From IMG/VR virus record IMGVR_UViG_3300033148_001837, positions 1 through 35,818 of that record: 35,818 nt of DNA, one strand, 5' to 3'. Source of the DNA: a virus. The notes under the pieces are model-generated. The model had not been told where the DNA came from and searched no databases. It was given only the letters and a program-made list of their open reading frames with translations. Below, piece by piece: positions 16,049 to 35,818 of the stretch. The translations under genes and the position numbers were made by a program. Within the stretch, counting starts at the first letter, position 1; each line of letters begins with the position of its first letter.

Positions 16049-16100
16049 GCGGCTAAATTAATTTAGTTTAATTACTTGCTATTTGTATAGCTAGTTGCTA
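16043..16100. promoter_or_regulatory. Three-site operator region
   Basis: Three 13-bp sites related to the palindrome TAGCAACTTGCTA lie between the divergent promoters: 16043-16055 (read on minus, TAGCCGCTTGCTA), 16069-16081 (TAATTACTTGCTA, 10 of 13 matching) and 16088-16100 (TAGCTAGTTGCTA). Their centres are 26 and 19 bp apart. They overlap the -35 of the leftward promoter and both boxes of the rightward promoter. The arrangement resembles a lambda-type operator and fits a small Cro-like ligand. Confidence 0.7.
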
Positions 16101-16104
16101 TATT
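16076..16104 (+). promoter_or_regulatory. First rightward early promoter
   Basis: TTGCTA (16076-16081), a 17-nt spacer and TATATT (16099-16104). The operator 16088-16100 ends inside the -10 box and another half-site is the -35 box itself. It drives the genes from 16137 onward. Confidence 0.75.
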
Positions 16105-16136
16105 AGTGGCGTAGGTTAATTTTATTGGAGCTAGTT

Positions 16137-16454: not shown

Positions 16455-16880
16455 GTGGAATATTTAGTTATCAAAGCGTTCGACATTGCTACTTTTGCCT
16501 ATAACGGCTTAGTGGATAAATCTGGTGTTGATTATATTTATCACCCTTTAAGTGTGGCTAGGAAAGTTTCTAGTTTAGGTGATGAGTATGAGGCTACTGC
16601 TTTATTACACGATGCGATCGAAGATAGTGAGTTAGATGCTGAGGAATTGATCAACATGGGTATGCCTGGTGTTGTGGTTAATGCTGTAGTGATATTAACT
16701 AAAAAGCCTGGTGTTAGCTATTTGGATTTTGTTAGATCGATTAAAGATAGCGGGAACGTGATGGCTATTAAAGTTAAGTTAGCGGATCTTGAGGATAACA
16801 TGGATTCATCTAGAGGTTATAAAATGCCTGAGAGTATGGCGAAACGATATGCGAAAGCGGTTGAAATTTTAAAAGAGTAA
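16455..16880 (+). CDS. SpoT/MESH1-like HD-domain protein
   Basis: From the GTG at 16455 (preceded by GAAGGCGAG; the longer upstream frame would overlap the previous gene heavily) this is a 141-aa single HD domain. It shows H30-P31 in YIYHPLSVA, H52-D53 in LLHDAIED with E56-D57, and K108-x-x-D111-x-x-x-N in VKLADLEDN. This is the layout of ppGpp hydrolases (SpoT, MESH1) and of small phage and bacterial relatives. The first metal-binding His of the family ('H-x-G-Q-x-(R/D)-K') is Tyr16 here, so activity must be tested. As an early gene it could degrade alarmones or a related nucleotide in the host. Confidence 0.82.
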   Translation: MEYLVIKAFDIATFAYNGLVDKSGVDYIYHPLSVARKVSSLGDEYEATALLHDAIEDSELDAEELINMGMPGVVVNAVVILTKKPGVSYLDFVRSIKDSGNVMAIKVKLADLEDNMDSSRGYKMPESMAKRYAKAVEILKE

Positions 16881-16889
16881 CCTTTTTAG

Positions 16890-16918
16890 TTGTAATCTGT
16901 ATAGCTATTTGCTATATT
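16890..16918 (+). promoter_or_regulatory. Second rightward early promoter with operator
   Basis: TTGTAA (16890-16895), a 17-nt spacer and TATATT (16913-16918). The palindrome TAGCTATTTGCTA (16902-16914) ends in the -10 box. It begins 10 nt after the HD-domain gene and drives the LPD29 gene. Confidence 0.75.
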
Positions 16919-16953
16919 ACAGTTGCTGGTTAATTAATTGCGAGGGTTTAAAA

Positions 16954-17562
16954 ATGTCTAATTATGTTTCTTGTGCTGATACTGCGAAGTTAATCCGTAA
17001 GGCTTTAAAAGAGTCGTTCCCAGGGGTTAAGTTTTCAGTTCGTTCTAAAACTTATTCGGGTGGTGCGTCGATTAACATCGGTTATGAAGATGGTCCTACT
17101 AACGATATGGTTAAAAGCGTTATCTCTCCGTTTGAAGGGGCTTATTTTGATGGCATGATCGATTATAAAGGATCTTGTTACGCTTCGTTAGATGGTGAAG
17201 TGGTTAGTTTTGGCGCGGATTCTATCTTCGTTGAACGTAGCGCCAGTGATAGCTTGGTTAATGAGGCCATTGATGCGGTTGTTGCTGATATGCCAAACAA
17301 CTTTAAAAATGATGGTGTTAGTTTTAGGCCAAAATTGGAAGCTTACAGAAAAGGCTTATTATATAACATGCAGGTTTGTGGTGGTTTGTATTTTGAGAAT
17401 AGCGTCCAGGCCATGATCGGAAATAAGGTTAGCGAAATTTATTATGGTGGCCAAGCTGCTAAGTCAGAAACTTTAGATAGAGTTAAGTTTTTAGGTAGTG
17501 ATGGTTATTCGGCAAGTCAAACGGCTATGGGTATCGGTGCTGCTCCTGGTCGTTCGATGTAA
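16954..17562 (+). CDS. LPD29-domain early protein
   Basis: The start is set by TGCGAGGG before the ATG, a ribosome-site form shared with other early genes here. The first 75 residues of the 202-aa product match the LPD29 (large polyvalent protein-associated) pattern: 'ADTAKLIRKALKESFPGVKF', a following 'SVRSKTYSGGASINIGYEDG', and 'P-T-x-D-M-V-K ... F-x-G-x-x-F-D-G-M-x-D'. The rest is unassigned, with a 'SVSF-like' middle and a C-terminus ending in GIGAAPGRSM. LPD29 domains normally sit inside giant polyvalent proteins delivered by mobile elements; here it is a separate early gene with its own promoter. Role unknown. Confidence 0.75.
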   Translation: MSNYVSCADTAKLIRKALKESFPGVKFSVRSKTYSGGASINIGYEDGPTNDMVKSVISPFEGAYFDGMIDYKGSCYASLDGEVVSFGADSIFVERSASDSLVNEAIDAVVADMPNNFKNDGVSFRPKLEAYRKGLLYNMQVCGGLYFENSVQAMIGNKVSEIYYGGQAAKSETLDRVKFLGSDGYSASQTAMGIGAAPGRSM

Positions 17563-29596: not shown

Positions 29597-31999
29597 TTAG
29601 TTTGCTGGTGATGTTTCGCCAGGTTTCCAAAAATATGATTGATTGTAATCTTTTTTACGTTTTCGTTGTATCCGTCTAAATCGAGCCGGTGCACCTGGAT
29701 CCGCCGCCCGCTGCAATTGATCTAGCACCATTCTTTCATAAGCGAGCCTTGTATACCATAGCGAAGTACCTGGCGTGTAAGCCCTGGAAAAATCAACCAG
29801 GTCCGCGCCGAGCTTCATATCTTCACCCTTGGCTAATTGTTGGATATTGCCCTGGGTTAAACTTAATACATCTTCGCCGAGCGCCCACATAGGTCCAAGC
29901 GCCGAGGTTAATGGTCCACCGCCGAAGCGATTAGCATCAGAAAATAAGAAATCACCATAGATACCCGCACCGCCGCCTTGTAAAAATCCAGCGCCCCAGG
30001 TTTTAGGATCGTCCATATTTCGAGGCTGCTTACCCCTGGAGACTTCTTTTAATTGCATAGCAGCCACACCCATTACAGTGGTTCCGATCGTTAAGCCGCC
30101 TAAATATTTAGCTTTAGTCAAGCCGCCATCAGCCAACATGCCGCGATATAAATGGGTAGCGATAACGGTAATAGGGAAAGATTTAAACATGCCTACACCG
30201 CGAGCTATTTCGCCGGAGACTGATCCCCGAGGAAGGCCGCCGGTTGTAATTGCGCGAGCTCTACCATCAGGCATAGGGACCGCGTAATCCATTTCGGTTA
30301 ATACCATTTCATTTAATCGTGTCGCCAAGTGAGTGGCTTGATCTGGATTAAGGTCAGTCCGTTGCATCATATTTTCAACGCTAAAAAATTTAGCACCATC
30401 ATAATCAAGTAATTCTGTTTTTCTCAGGATCTCCCAATCTTCGGCAGATATCCCGTATCGCTTGAAACCTTCTTTCATTGCTGCAGGTAGTTCATCCATG
30501 TTTTTACCAACTTGCTCAGCAAACATACCATAAAATTCCATACCGAAAGCTTTTTGGCCGGCATCGGTCCAGGCAGATAGCATGCTGGCCCGCATAGTAA
30601 AATCAGCTACTTTCGCACTAAACCCGGATCCAGTTGTCTCCGTGAATCGATTAGCAGCCAGGGCGTGATTAGTCCAGGCATTAGCGGTTAGGTGCATTTT
30701 TACAGCTGCTAATCTATCCGCTTCATTTTTTGGATTTAATAAAGATAATTGCCGTTTAAAGGCTTTTGTTGCAGATATTCCGTTAAATCCGGCTGTTTTT
30801 TTCATGAAAGCCATATCAGATACAGCGGATAACATAGCGCCGCCTAATTTACTGGCCACTAATATCGATCTAACCGCTTGCATAAAGTCGGCAAACCTTA
30901 CAGATTTTGTAGCATTACCCTCGCCTGATACCACTCTCCAGACTGAATCCATGAACGCCATTTTTAAATCTTCTTTTCCCTCAGCTTTAAGCGCTAGGTC
31001 CCGCATGTGCTTCCAAGAAGCGCTCGGATTAGGGCCTAAAATTTCCAGTTTTGCGGTATCGTTGGCCATTGAGCTTAGGTGATCTGTTAACGTCGCGTAT
31101 AAATCAGCATGGCCAAATTGATCATGGTAACCGAGCCAGCTATCCGCATCCTTAAATGGTAATACACGGTGATCCCTATGTTGATTAGCTAATTTAGCGC
31201 CGCCTTGTTGCCCTGGTTTTAAACTGGCTAGGCCATCGGTGGCTATATCGTCGTACATTTTCTGTAGCATGATATCGAATTGCATATCGTCTACAGGGAA
31301 GCCTTGGTCGTCAATCATTTTAGATCTATCTAATTTAGGCTTAATGCCTTCAATCCATTCATCTTTTGGCATACGTGAAACTCGAACGGGGTCGTGCCAC
31401 TGTGGCATCCCCCAATCTTCACGCTTAGGAATAGCGCCACCGGCTTTATTAAATCGAACGCGAGCCATTTCAGCTACTTCGCTCCAGACTCTTGCCATAG
31501 TGCTGGCTGTGCCGTCACCTGTGCCGGTGCCAAATAACTCACGGACCATATTGCGAAGGCCCTCTACATCTTGAGTTAGCCCTAAATTTTTTGTTCTATA
31601 CTCAGCCATCGCATTAGCGAATTTAGCCTGGTATGCGGCCAGTATGGCATTACCTCGGCCCTCAATATTTGAATAGCCAGCTCTTGAGCCAAGATCTTTA
31701 ACCAATAAGCTCATAACACCAGTTCTAACACCGGCCGGATGCGAATTAACTTGGCCGGTTATTTTGTGGATAGCCATGGCCTGGAGGCGTGTTTGTCTTT
31801 TTTGTAATGCGAGCTCAGCCTTTTTTGACGCTATAGCCATTACCTCAGCCTCAACCCTTGCCGCTTCTGGCGATACATCACCGCGCAAAGTAATTAGACC
31901 TTCATGCTGATCAATTCGCTTAGCCAGTTCGTCGCCTTCTTCCTGGGTTATTTTCCCAGTAGCGATAGCCGCATCAATACAATCGGTTAAATTAGCCAA
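29597..31999 (-). CDS. Large internal virion protein (800 aa)
   Basis: The 800-aa protein is helical, Ala/Lys-rich, with an N-terminal coiled-coil-like region and long helical bundles (for example DLYATLTDHLSSMANDTAKL). Two Gly-rich hydrophobic stretches are visible (YLGGLTIGTTVMGVAAMQL at about 650 and GGGAGIYGDFLFS). Large internal proteins in this location are ejected into the host by T7-like phages and form part of a channel. No lytic transglycosylase or other enzyme motif is visible. It overlaps the RelA/SpoT-like gene by 8 nt. Confidence 0.7.
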   Translation of the reverse strand: MANLTDCIDAAIATGKITQEEGDELAKRIDQHEGLITLRGDVSPEAARVEAEVMAIASKKAELALQKRQTRLQAMAIHKITGQVNSHPAGVRTGVMSLLVKDLGSRAGYSNIEGRGNAILAAYQAKFANAMAEYRTKNLGLTQDVEGLRNMVRELFGTGTGDGTASTMARVWSEVAEMARVRFNKAGGAIPKREDWGMPQWHDPVRVSRMPKDEWIEGIKPKLDRSKMIDDQGFPVDDMQFDIMLQKMYDDIATDGLASLKPGQQGGAKLANQHRDHRVLPFKDADSWLGYHDQFGHADLYATLTDHLSSMANDTAKLEILGPNPSASWKHMRDLALKAEGKEDLKMAFMDSVWRVVSGEGNATKSVRFADFMQAVRSILVASKLGGAMLSAVSDMAFMKKTAGFNGISATKAFKRQLSLLNPKNEADRLAAVKMHLTANAWTNHALAANRFTETTGSGFSAKVADFTMRASMLSAWTDAGQKAFGMEFYGMFAEQVGKNMDELPAAMKEGFKRYGISAEDWEILRKTELLDYDGAKFFSVENMMQRTDLNPDQATHLATRLNEMVLTEMDYAVPMPDGRARAITTGGLPRGSVSGEIARGVGMFKSFPITVIATHLYRGMLADGGLTKAKYLGGLTIGTTVMGVAAMQLKEVSRGKQPRNMDDPKTWGAGFLQGGGAGIYGDFLFSDANRFGGGPLTSALGPMWALGEDVLSLTQGNIQQLAKGEDMKLGADLVDFSRAYTPGTSLWYTRLAYERMVLDQLQRAADPGAPARFRRIQRKRKKDYNQSYFWKPGETSPAN

Positions 32000-34124
32000 G
32001 TAAGCATCCCTCTAGTTCATTCATCACGTTCGCTTTTGCTTCAATTTCATCGTAAATTTCTTTAGTGCCTTTAATTTCTGGCACAATTTTACCATCAACA
32101 ACGGTTTCACCAATAGGGATATCAAGGTCCTGGTTATATATTTCACGATCGAGAGCCGCTTCACGTGCTGCGATTTCTGGATCAATAGGACCATCAAAAT
32201 ATTTTTCTTGGTTTATCTTGTCGCTTTTTGCTATACTATCGGATATGAAAACTCCTTTCAAATCATCAGAAGTTAAATCCTGGGTAGACTGGGACAATCG
32301 GCCGGCTGTAGTTTCGGAGCCAGCTGATGGCTCCTTGCGTGGCTTCGTGCTTAAATCCGCTAAAGATGGCTGGATAGCTGCCTCGCCCTCTGAAATCTTA
32401 GAATCTGGCCGACGCGTATCAATGAGCGTTTTCCAGTCTCGATTTGCTAGCTTGTTGGCGTCAGAGTAAAGATCTTGCATTTCTTTATTTAAGCTGTTCC
32501 ATTCAGCCCTATCCTTCGCTTCAACGACGTTATTTTTTTCAAGTGAGCGCTGTTTCTCGTATAAATCGTGGCCGGTTTTGCCTTTGGCCGGCACTTTTTG
32601 ACTTTTATCAATTAAGCGTTTTGGTATATGCTTAAAAGCTTCTTTACCTTCCTTGGCGACAAGCATGTGAGGCTCCCACAATTGAACCTCACCGACCGAG
32701 CCGTCCTTAAATCTAACTAATAATTTTCTATCAACATAGCCAGCCGGTGTAATATTCAAGCCTTCATCAAGTACCTCAAATTTCTTAGATACCTGTTTCA
32801 ATACCTGTTGTGCCGCTTCTGGCGTATTAACAATAAACCCACCGCGCACGATATCTGTCATTTCGCCAGGCTTCTCATATTTGTCGAGTTTTTCTATCGC
32901 CCTTCTTTTCCCTTTTATTCCAGGACTAATAAACGCGATATTTTCCGCGCCTATATCGCTAACAATACGAACGGACGCTTGAGTTAAAATAGTTTGGTTT
33001 TTCTGAGCCAGCTTATAAATATCATCCAAAGAACGCTCCATTTGAACGACTTTAAAATCGGTTTCTGTTTGTTTTTTTATAACATCAGGCATATCTGCTA
33101 TTGATACCGGTGCGCCTCGCTTAAATTCAGGGATTACCTCACCCTCACGAATCGTATCGTAAGCTCTGCTTTCTAGTGGAGATATTTCGACCGTATCTTT
33201 ATATGTAGGCCCAACTTGATCTGTTGGCCTTCCAGTCTCAAGATCATTAATAGCCTGGTCGATAGCATTAAAATGGCTGTCAACATCAGCTCCACCGTCC
33301 TCAACATCATCAGCATGGCGCTCCATGATATCCGCTTCCATTTCAGCGGCTTTGCCACCCTCAGCGCGTTTAATCTTTGCTGCTGCTCTCATACTAACCG
33401 CATCGATAACCATGGATCCAGCTGAGCGTATAAGGCCCGCGCCCACCATTGCTGTAAATACGTTTGTTGCCGCTTCTTCCACGGAATACGGCGAGCTAAT
33501 ATCGTTTTTCCAGTCATATACTTTTTTCTGAATAACAGTTTCAGACGCTAGAGCGATACCAGCCTCAATTTTAAAAGCCTTCCAGGCATTAGCCATAAGT
33601 GACCCACCGATCGCCTCACCACCAAAAGGGAGCGTTTGCAATATCAATGGATCAGTAATAACCTGGCGAGCTGTAGCGCCCACCATACCCAAATTAGCAA
33701 AGCCGCGAGCATTAGCAAAGTCTGTCATTGCTTGCTCACGAACCGGCTCAGTCATTTGAGTGTTTTTAGTTAAAATATCCGTATAGGATTGAAGGCTAGG
33801 ATTGTCTTTTTTGGCTTTATTGATTTGATCTTCAAATTTTTTAAGATAGTCGCGTTTTTGCTCGTATCCCCAGCCAGTGGAGTACCGCTTCATTCTTAAA
33901 CCCATGCGGGTACTGGTGCCAGCTGTTAATGCGTAATCAGTCAAAGCTTGATCGATACTACTTTCCATTAGATTAGCTTCTGAATCGCTCCGGCCCTCAT
34001 TGGCCATATATTGATTATACGAGTCGTAAACGTCGCCTATACCTGGATCAGCCATATCCTCGGAGGTAGTTGGTGCCTGGCGCTCGTTTAATTCAGCTAT
34101 TGATTGTCGATCGAGGTTTTTCAT
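31992..34124 (-). CDS. Internal virion protein with RelA/SpoT-like nucleotidyltransferase domain
   Basis: The 710-aa protein has helical N-terminal segments with two hydrophobic stretches, then a domain at about 390-490 with RelA/SpoT hallmarks: K404-G-K406-R-R-A-I-E-K412, D424 in TDIVRGGFIV, 'G-Y-V-D-R-K-L-L-V-R-F' and G-E479-V-Q481-L-W followed by P-H-M. The alternating E-x-Q, the D in 'D-I-x-R-G' and the basic loop match the active-site elements of (p)ppGpp synthetases. The C-terminal region is disordered and helical. As an internal protein it would be ejected into the host. The domain could also be a related NTase-fold toxin; enzymatic product unknown. Confidence 0.7.
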   Translation of the reverse strand: MKNLDRQSIAELNERQAPTTSEDMADPGIGDVYDSYNQYMANEGRSDSEANLMESSIDQALTDYALTAGTSTRMGLRMKRYSTGWGYEQKRDYLKKFEDQINKAKKDNPSLQSYTDILTKNTQMTEPVREQAMTDFANARGFANLGMVGATARQVITDPLILQTLPFGGEAIGGSLMANAWKAFKIEAGIALASETVIQKKVYDWKNDISSPYSVEEAATNVFTAMVGAGLIRSAGSMVIDAVSMRAAAKIKRAEGGKAAEMEADIMERHADDVEDGGADVDSHFNAIDQAINDLETGRPTDQVGPTYKDTVEISPLESRAYDTIREGEVIPEFKRGAPVSIADMPDVIKKQTETDFKVVQMERSLDDIYKLAQKNQTILTQASVRIVSDIGAENIAFISPGIKGKRRAIEKLDKYEKPGEMTDIVRGGFIVNTPEAAQQVLKQVSKKFEVLDEGLNITPAGYVDRKLLVRFKDGSVGEVQLWEPHMLVAKEGKEAFKHIPKRLIDKSQKVPAKGKTGHDLYEKQRSLEKNNVVEAKDRAEWNSLNKEMQDLYSDANKLANRDWKTLIDTRRPDSKISEGEAAIQPSLADLSTKPRKEPSAGSETTAGRLSQSTQDLTSDDLKGVFISDSIAKSDKINQEKYFDGPIDPEIAAREAALDREIYNQDLDIPIGETVVDGKIVPEIKGTKEIYDEIEAKANVMNELEGCLLG

Positions 34125-35818
34125 TCAGTTGGCCATGCTAAAATAAATGGAGATCCATCTATATTATTAATTCTACCGCCTTTAAATTCCAGGTTATATT
34201 TACCGTCACCGATTGACATTAATTTGACTGTTTGATCATTAATAGCCTGAGTTAAATCAGAACTGATACCAGTCACCCCCATAGATTCAACATCGTCCTG
34301 GGTTATGTTCTCCATCCAATCGATCAAAGCATCGTCGTCAACGCCATCAGCTGGCGCCTCAATAGTGTAATCAGGATCAAAGCCCCAACCACCCGCGCCC
34401 TGGTAACTTAATTCAATCATCCCGCCAGTAACGGTATCCATAAGCTTATCAAGTCGTTCTGTGTTTATAGCTTCGCCATTGGTGTCGCCATTAACTGATG
34501 ATTCGTAAGCATATAGGTTTTTAGCTGATTCACGTAAAGCCTCTATTTGTCCAGGTCGATGATTATAAGCAGCCCCGATGTAATTATTAAACGAGTCGTT
34601 AAACTCTTTAGGAATAATTTGAGGATACGCCGCAATAATGTCGATACCTTTTAGCATCGCCATACCGGTCGGGCCTTTACCATCCACCACCATAGAGCCA
34701 GCCATCGCAAAAGTGCCTGAACCTTTATTGCTTAGCTGTTCAAAAATTGGCATAGACTCGGCGCCCAGGGAGCCAACAAGCTCGGACATTTGGCTTATTT
34801 TTTCTTTTGTTGTTGATTCGTCCAGGCTTATTTTAAGGTCGTCGATTTCTACGTCCGTCATAACAGAAATAGGCTGGCCATAATGCGCCTCAGCCGCTTT
34901 CGCTAAATCTTGACGCTGAGCCAAGCCGCCTTCCTGATTTAATGGGGGCAGTTCTTGGATAATTCCTTGTTTTAATGCTAGATCTAATCCTCGGCCGGCT
35001 TTTAATTCGCTTCGAGTATAATCGCGCGTTTTCTCTAATCGCTCGATCAATCTTACTTCTTCGCCGCCGTGGGATTTTTTACTTTTTATCTTTGTAAGTG
35101 TTGCGTCCATTTCTTTCGGAGGTAACTGCACAAACTCATTAACCGCGTCCTGGTGTTTTTGAATTAACTTTAATTCTTTCTCGTATTTAGTTCCACGTGA
35201 AACCTCTAAAAGTTCATCAATGTTATCTACCTGGTAGCCTTTATTGAGCGAGTTATTAGCATTATCTACGCTGCGTTTTAATGCTTTTTCTACCGCTTTA
35301 ATCTCAGCGTTTTTGCGTGTTATCTCAGATCTTAATTTGGCCCGCTCCTGGTTTAGTGCTGAGCGCATTTTATTGGTAATTTTTTCTTTTAATACCGGAT
35401 CGATATCTTTACGTTTTTGGAAATTAGAGTAAGATTTTTCAGCCTGATCCAGTCCCTCATCTTCTATGGTACGATCAAATACGCCTATAACATTTTGAGT
35501 TAATACGTTATCGTTAAATTCTAGCTTTAATGCTTCTGCCTTAGCTTTATCGTATAGATTGTTTTCTACACCTTGATCAAGCAACATAAAATATTGAGCT
35601 TGTTTATTTTGTAATTGAGCCTCGTCACCATGATAAGCCGCGATCATTGAATCATCGCTCATGCCATCGATAGCGACATTAATAGCCGCTAGGTTTTCTG
35701 TTTCAGCTTTATCAAATATATTTTTTTCAATACGAACCTGGGAGCGGACCTTGTAATCTCCGAGCTCCTGGATTGCCATCGGTTTCAAGCTTTCATCGAT
35801 TTCCTCGAATAAACCGGA
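34121..35818 (-). CDS. Large internal virion protein, C-terminal part (cut by window edge)
   Basis: The frame is open at the window edge (SGLFEEIDESLKPMAIQELG) and runs 565 residues to its stop, which overlaps the next gene by ATGA. It is highly helical with long coiled-coil segments (about 130-260) and a small globular C-terminus with Gly/Trp-rich strands (GAGGWGFDPDY). A TTG at 35788 could serve as a start, but the upstream residues continue the same helical character, so I treat it as the C-terminal part of the protein that begins at 356. It is likely an ejected tail/internal protein. Confidence 0.7.
   Translation of the reverse strand, partial: SGLFEEIDESLKPMAIQELGDYKVRSQVRIEKNIFDKAETENLAAINVAIDGMSDDSMIAAYHGDEAQLQNKQAQYFMLLDQGVENNLYDKAKAEALKLEFNDNVLTQNVIGVFDRTIEDEGLDQAEKSYSNFQKRKDIDPVLKEKITNKMRSALNQERAKLRSEITRKNAEIKAVEKALKRSVDNANNSLNKGYQVDNIDELLEVSRGTKYEKELKLIQKHQDAVNEFVQLPPKEMDATLTKIKSKKSHGGEEVRLIERLEKTRDYTRSELKAGRGLDLALKQGIIQELPPLNQEGGLAQRQDLAKAAEAHYGQPISVMTDVEIDDLKISLDESTTKEKISQMSELVGSLGAESMPIFEQLSNKGSGTFAMAGSMVVDGKGPTGMAMLKGIDIIAAYPQIIPKEFNDSFNNYIGAAYNHRPGQIEALRESAKNLYAYESSVNGDTNGEAINTERLDKLMDTVTGGMIELSYQGAGGWGFDPDYTIEAPADGVDDDALIDWMENITQDDVESMGVTGISSDLTQAINDQTVKLMSIGDGKYNLEFKGGRINNIDGSPFILAWPTE

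Follow-up and report, generated by a model that had tools for sequence, protein, structure and literature searches.

Is the small HD-type hydrolase encoded by this phage the partner of an alarmone synthetase domain that the same phage would inject into its host? An earlier note had proposed either such an inject-then-remove pair or a counter to host alarmone defence. We examined the question in the window, the whole stretch of viral DNA analysed here (an IMG/VR virus record of 35,818 nucleotides), and in related virus records.

Identification of the alarmone hydrolase gene

The gene that raised the question is the following:

16455..16880, + strand: small alarmone hydrolase (SAH, Aph1-like), 141 aa; database matches, alignment and AF2 model

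The open reading frame starts with GTG and its 141-aa product was compared with domain and structure databases. The results showed matches to phrog_990 (metal-dependent phosphohydrolase) in PHROGs (E=5e-40) and to NCBIfam spoT_relA in its RSH hydrolase part (6e-9), with Pfam HD_4 scoring slightly below the cut-off. The best solved relative in the PDB was 7smg, a (p)ppApp hydrolase from Bacteroides caccae (E=2.8e-23, and 7.7e-44 with the SAH family profile). The syntenic phage G001 carries a homologue with 76% identity at the same genome place, and pN/pS between the two genes was 0.26, indicating that the SAH gene is under purifying selection. Together, the phrog_990 and 7smg matches, the syntenic homologue and the pN/pS value indicate that the reading frame is not a chance one.

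The AF2 model of the SAH (pLDDT 96.3) was subjected to structure comparison, which revealed a single HD-type hydrolase domain with the RSH hydrolase fold. The closest fold was 7smg (Z 22.8, rmsd 1.4 Å over 137 aa), and the other SAHs PaSAH and MESH1 gave Z 19.1 and Z 18.6. These matches and the modelled fold bear out the SpoT/MESH1-like class given in the earlier note, and H52-D53, the ED motif E56-D57 and D111 are present in the translated frame exactly as it had claimed. By its sequence and modelled fold, the product is a small alarmone hydrolase with an intact metal site.

Metal site and probable substrate of the SAH

The metal site was defined by the pattern H, H-D, D (RelSeq H53, H77, D78, D144), and the corresponding ligands in the SAH are H30, H52, D53 and D111. 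SAH H30 aligns at an offset of +23 to RelSeq H53, the metal-binding His, and it sits in the motif YIYHP (Y-I-x-H-P in Rel/SpoT alignments). Across 35 phage SAH homologues, H30, H52, D53, E56, K108 and D111 were invariant. At position 16, >90% of these homologues have His; the Tyr there is shared by the window and G001 and is therefore no sequencing error. Tyr16 had been read as a replacement of the first metal-binding His that might leave the enzyme inactive. We rejected this reading, because at the same offset Tyr16 falls on Rel residue 39, a position where His is common but does not bind the metal, and the metal His, H30, is present; the worry about inactivity is thus unfounded.

At position 21 the SAH has Asp where the alignment places Arg44 of Rel, and Asp at this position is common to 7smg and the pneumococcal Aph1-type SAH. 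The R44Q mutant of B. subtilis Rel serves as a hydrolase-defective control for (p)ppGpp (PMC9765508). Asp21 would therefore point to (p)ppApp rather than (p)ppGpp as the substrate, an argument that rests on the alignment and the R44Q statement. The SAH would thus most likely be a Mn-dependent (p)ppApp 3'-pyrophosphohydrolase like Aph1.

Early region around the SAH gene

The SAH gene is the third short open reading frame downstream of a divergent regulatory/promoter region, and the following features flank it:

16072..16121, + strand: putative early promoter/operator of the SAH operon (TTGCTA-17-TATATT, extended -10; palindrome TATAGC...GCTATA)
16886..16935, + strand: second copy of the promoter/palindrome element, directly after the SAH gene (78% identical over 50 nt)
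16954..17562, + strand: gene next after the SAH, with LPD29 (large polyvalent protein associated domain 29); domain match

Very similar elements were found at both corresponding places in G001, before the operon and after the SAH gene. A promoter scan of the window gave a number of matches not above that in shuffled sequences. The genes downstream of the SAH comprise the LPD29 gene and others encoding an annealing protein of the Erf type, an exonuclease like YqaJ and a replication protein like DnaD; G128, a divergent relative, likewise has an LPD29 gene close to its SAH. The position of the gene, after the divergent promoter region and ahead of the recombination and replication genes, suggests that the SAH is likely expressed early.

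A Tas1-like synthetase domain in a predicted ejection protein

The proposed partner lies in a cluster of genes on the minus strand:

34121..35788, - strand: epsilon15 gp15-like internal virion protein (phrog_992), its gene seemingly truncated where the contig ends; PHROGs match
31992..34124, - strand: predicted ejection protein of 710 aa in the epsilon15 gp16 position, bearing the synthetase domain; gene order
32379..33128, - strand: RelA/SpoT-like pyrophosphokinase (Tas1-like synthetase) domain, residues 333-582; sequence profile and AF2 fold
29597..31999, - strand: epsilon15 gp17-like internal virion protein (phrog_684), overlapping the end of the synthetase-bearing gene; PHROGs match

Pfam, PHROGs and NCBIfam did not recognise the synthetase domain, and Pfam gave neither Phage_Mu_F nor any other match for the 710-aa protein. 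Residues 333-582 directly matched Tas1, a T6SS effector that makes (p)ppApp (phmmer E=7.6e-5), and a profile built from 11 relatives of the domain found Tas1 as the top match (1.4e-14), followed by other RSH synthetases. The AF2 model of the domain (pLDDT 91.9) also had Tas1 as its top match in Foldseek (5e-8) and in VIA (Z 16.7 over 182 residues), compared with Z of about 13 for SAS enzymes and about 7 for unrelated nucleotidyltransferases. By this comparison the modelled domain has the RSH synthetase fold, and the RelA/SpoT-like domain that the earlier note had placed in this protein proved real. Named phage relatives were sought with the whole window and with the domain, and none was found.

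Among 27 aligned synthetase relatives, K72, K80, D92, R95, Y131, D133, G143, E147, Q149 and K159 (domain numbering) were invariant. The catalytic Asp (DLxGxR-like), the catalytic Glu (EIQ-like) and the ATP-binding Lys/Arg positions were found among K72, K80, D92, R95, E147 and Q149. The syn3 motif reads GYxDxK; of the 27 sequences, almost every one has DxK and none has GxN. (p)ppGpp synthetases have SxH in syn3, and GxN has been reported as the signature of Apk (p)ppApp synthetases (PMC12226406). Since syn3 is neither of these, the acceptor nucleotide and product of the domain are uncertain, and with GxN absent we regard the domain as Apk-like and do not file it as an Apk. It had no direct BLAST match to the pneumococcal MuF-Apk2 domain.

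The G001 homologue of the ejection protein (L012:8000-11137) has an additional module (phrog_10691, about 345 aa; a ParB-like motif was seen by eye only) between its N-terminal part and the synthetase domain, and the window protein does not have this module.

Gene order and exchangeable cargo at the gp16 position

The 710-aa protein is encoded between the gp15-like and gp17-like genes, the same order as in phiV10, epsilon15 and their relatives. From this position, the synthetase-bearing protein is probably ejected into the host. These two virion genes are its neighbours; the SAH gene is about 15 kb away, and no immunity gene adjoins the synthetase gene in the window. The gp15-like protein has 555 aa in the window versus 686 aa in G001, and its gene seems to be cut at the contig end (35788-35818, 1-356), so the window would be short of a few hundred genome bases.

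In sister lineages without the synthetase domain, other domains occupy the same position:

L125:6739-10005, L130:7000-10005 and L133:6708-9998: zeta-toxin-bearing proteins in the epsilon15 gp16 position; domain match
L182:7167-9668: transglycosylase SLT domain in the epsilon15 gp16 position; domain match

The zeta-toxin domains matched with E values from 2e-38 to 6e-19. Further sister lineages without the synthetase had no recognised domain in the protein at that position. This variable cargo resembles the polymorphic C-termini of MuF toxins, and the gp16-position proteins may form a polymorphic family of ejection-protein effectors.

Co-occurrence of the synthetase domain and the SAH

Single-sequence scans (P0002, gp17-like protein) returned nothing or only G001, and alignment queries were needed. 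A scan for viral contigs carrying the synthetase domain gave 25 records, among which G001 and the divergent G009 have an SAH. A second, divergent synthetase clade (the G091 clade) has an SAH in 5/5 contigs ≥27 kb (G091, G125, G128, G130 and G132) and in two short fragments; none was found in the 26.3-kb fragment G089. In contrast to the window SAH, the SAHs of this clade (L227-L232, L203) have Arg at the position of Rel Arg44 and are similar to (p)ppGpp hydrolases. Substrate matching between an SAH and the subtype of its partner synthetase is possible. The synthetases that accompany the SAHs of the G091 clade form a separate subtype.

The background sample consisted of 50 podovirus records picked via the gp17-like protein. 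Within it, the SAH was absent from all 42 sister records without the synthetase domain. For podovirus contigs of ≥27 kb that share the ejection module, an SAH was present in 7/14 synthetase-positive and 0/32 synthetase-negative ones (one-sided p=6e-5); this cut-off was picked after the data had been seen, and cut-offs of 25 kb and 30 kb gave p=6e-5 and p=4e-4. Counted by lineage, the association was weaker (3/7 versus 0/9, p=0.06; p=0.14 without the window clade). The co-occurrence in relatives that the earlier note had called for thus holds clearly by contig and less so by lineage. Strict, obligatory pairing was rejected, since four of the seven synthetase lineages show no SAH.

In the converse direction, no Tas1-like domain of this family was detected in 47/49 SAH-positive virus records, some of which are Apk2 prophages that the Tas1-like domain profile misses. 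The other two of the 49 SAH-positive records carry synthetase-like proteins:

L239:5818-10575, - strand: DarB-like polyvalent protein with a Tas1-like domain (SAH of the same record, L102:10001-10402)
L123:1024-2001: 325-aa synthetase-like protein (SAH of the same record, L071:10001-10411)

The first belongs to a 51.6-kb record (G060), in which the domain lies inside a 1585-aa protein, and the second to a 130-kb record (G037), in which the gene is next to a terminase-like gene and about 7 kb from the SAH. A maximum-likelihood tree of SAHs separated those of the window pair, the G091 clade, G009 and G060 into different clades, several of them strongly supported, with the G009 SAH on a long branch. 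As each pairing lineage has an SAH from a different clade, the pairing appears to have arisen repeatedly, and this repeated, independent pairing is the strongest argument suggesting a functional link between SAH and synthetase. Two results uphold the idea of a pair: the SAHs that co-occur with the synthetase come from no fewer than four distinct clades, and none was found in the synthetase-negative sisters.

Proposed mechanism and alternative explanations

We favour, with some reserve, an injected alarmone-synthetase toxin countered by an early SAH antidote, which on balance we consider probable. Both folds, the intact catalytic positions, the genome positions and the recurrent co-occurrence were observed, and from these we infer the following course. 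The virion would deliver the synthetase domain together with the phage DNA into the host cytoplasm, where the domain, with ATP as pyrophosphate donor, would modify a nucleotide at its 3'-OH and so probably make (p)ppApp. This would be toxic, draining ATP and ADP and halting host growth. The early SAH would then act as antidote and reverse the effect, allowing the phage to replicate, and it may protect the cell again late in infection, as large amounts of the ejection protein are produced. Several observations weigh against this reading: most synthetase lineages yielded no SAH and the association by lineage is weak, SAHs are common in phages that showed no such synthetase domain, syn3 fits neither known class, the G091-clade SAHs resemble (p)ppGpp hydrolases, and the synthetase gene has no adjoining immunity gene.

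A less probable explanation, which still deserves weight, is counter-defence: the early SAH would remove host alarmones, either (p)ppGpp of the stringent response or (p)ppApp and pyrophosphorylated products of toxSAS, and the ejected synthetase would be incidental. SAHs occur in about 406/50,697 phage records, many of them from large phages, and the 47 SAH-positive records without a Tas1-like domain of this family fit this explanation, as do the SAHs of phages PVP-SE1 and SSU5, which neutralise the toxSAS FaRel (Jimmy et al. 2020, as cited in PMC7644958). However, counter-defence does not sit well with the contrast between the 42 synthetase-negative sisters, none with an SAH, and the G091 clade, in which every near-complete synthetase-bearing member has one, and Asp21 in place of Rel Arg44 speaks against (p)ppGpp as the main substrate.

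It is improbable that the pair forms a switch for nucleotide recycling and host takeover, in which a brief alarmone made by the injected domain stops host transcription and the SAH later ends the signal and frees nucleotides. Gene positions suit such an order, with the synthetase arriving with the DNA and the hydrolase following from the early operon, but the closest characterised relatives, Tas1 and Apk2, are toxins, and sister phages carry the zeta toxin and other effectors at the same position; sequence alone does not separate the switch from the toxin-antidote reading. We give very little credence to the synthetase domain being a non-catalytic structural relic, with the SAH alone serving as a metabolic gene such as an NADPH or general alarmone hydrolase: the syn3 motif is unlike both known classes and MESH1-like SAHs can act on NADPH (PMC9765508), but the SAH has an intact metal site and evolves under constraint (see its pN/pS above), and the catalytic Asp and Glu of the synthetase, invariant in its divergent relatives, make a relic unlikely.

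Beyond this phage, we propose more tentatively, as something that could about as easily prove wrong, that the ejection protein of epsilon15-like podoviruses is an exchangeable effector carrier. Its cargo would be a pyrophosphokinase (for alarmones or another nucleotide/tRNA), a kinase of the zeta-toxin type or a transglycosylase. On repeated, independent occasions, phages with the pyrophosphokinase would have acquired an alarmone hydrolase for self-protection, its substrate class possibly matching the synthetase subtype.

Relation to known systems and implications

The pair had been presented in the earlier note as a new type of phage nucleotide control, which overstates its novelty. Apk2, a MuF-linked (p)ppApp synthetase, and the Aph1 hydrolase have already been described in prophages of S. 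pneumoniae, Mannheimia and Pasteurella, where together with IapK they form a toxin-immunity module (PMC12226406). Like that module, the window combines a virion-linked phage protein bearing a C-terminal RSH synthetase domain with an SAH in the same phage, and the best phage matches of the window SAH include the SAH beside the MuF gene of pneumococcal prophages (44-50% identity), the setting of Aph1 (PMC12226406). Unlike it, the window has a podovirus ejection protein as the carrier instead of MuF, an SAH that lies in an early operon remote from the synthetase gene, no iapK-like or aph1 gene adjacent to the synthetase, and GYxDxK in syn3.

The (p)ppApp hydrolase of B. caccae (7smg) shares the fold, the metal ligands and the Asp at the Rel-Arg44 position with the window SAH; the two differ in that identity is 40%, Tyr16 stands for the common non-metal His and the window gene is not beside a toxin. 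Tas1/Apk1 of P. aeruginosa (6ox6) resembles the window synthetase in its fold, in the invariant Asp and Glu positions and in a C-terminal extension with GH..Y, whereas it is delivered by a T6SS PAAR protein, has GxN instead of DxK in syn3 and is about 20% identical.

Iyer et al. (2017, PMC5512222) had noted that polyvalent proteins of phages can contain RelA/SpoT domains; they described injected multidomain phage proteins with such a domain and proposed that these act at invasion. The passages of that paper considered here name spirochaete and epsilonproteobacterial prophages and MuF fusions, and in those passages podovirus ejection proteins and a hydrolase partner are not mentioned. The SAHs of PVP-SE1 and SSU5 are phage-encoded like the window SAH, and they can neutralise a (p)ppApp-making toxSAS; they differ in that no ejected synthetase partner is reported for them in the account of Jimmy et al. 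given in PMC7644958. Other nearest systems are Bxa and related MuF toxins (PMC11699363) and exported alarmone synthetases (PMC12691689). Within the open-access literature, we found no description of a synthetase domain in a podovirus ejection protein combined with a remote early SAH.

If the toxin-antidote reading is correct, alarmone toxin-immunity pairs of phages would be linked not just to prophage MuF head proteins but also to the machinery by which short-tailed phages eject proteins, and the antidote would there be relocated to an early operon. The pair makes it testable whether nucleotide-signalling enzymes are injected at entry, and why a hydrolase is needed. Likewise testable is how SAHs with no toxin gene beside them may nonetheless be partnered from another part of the genome.
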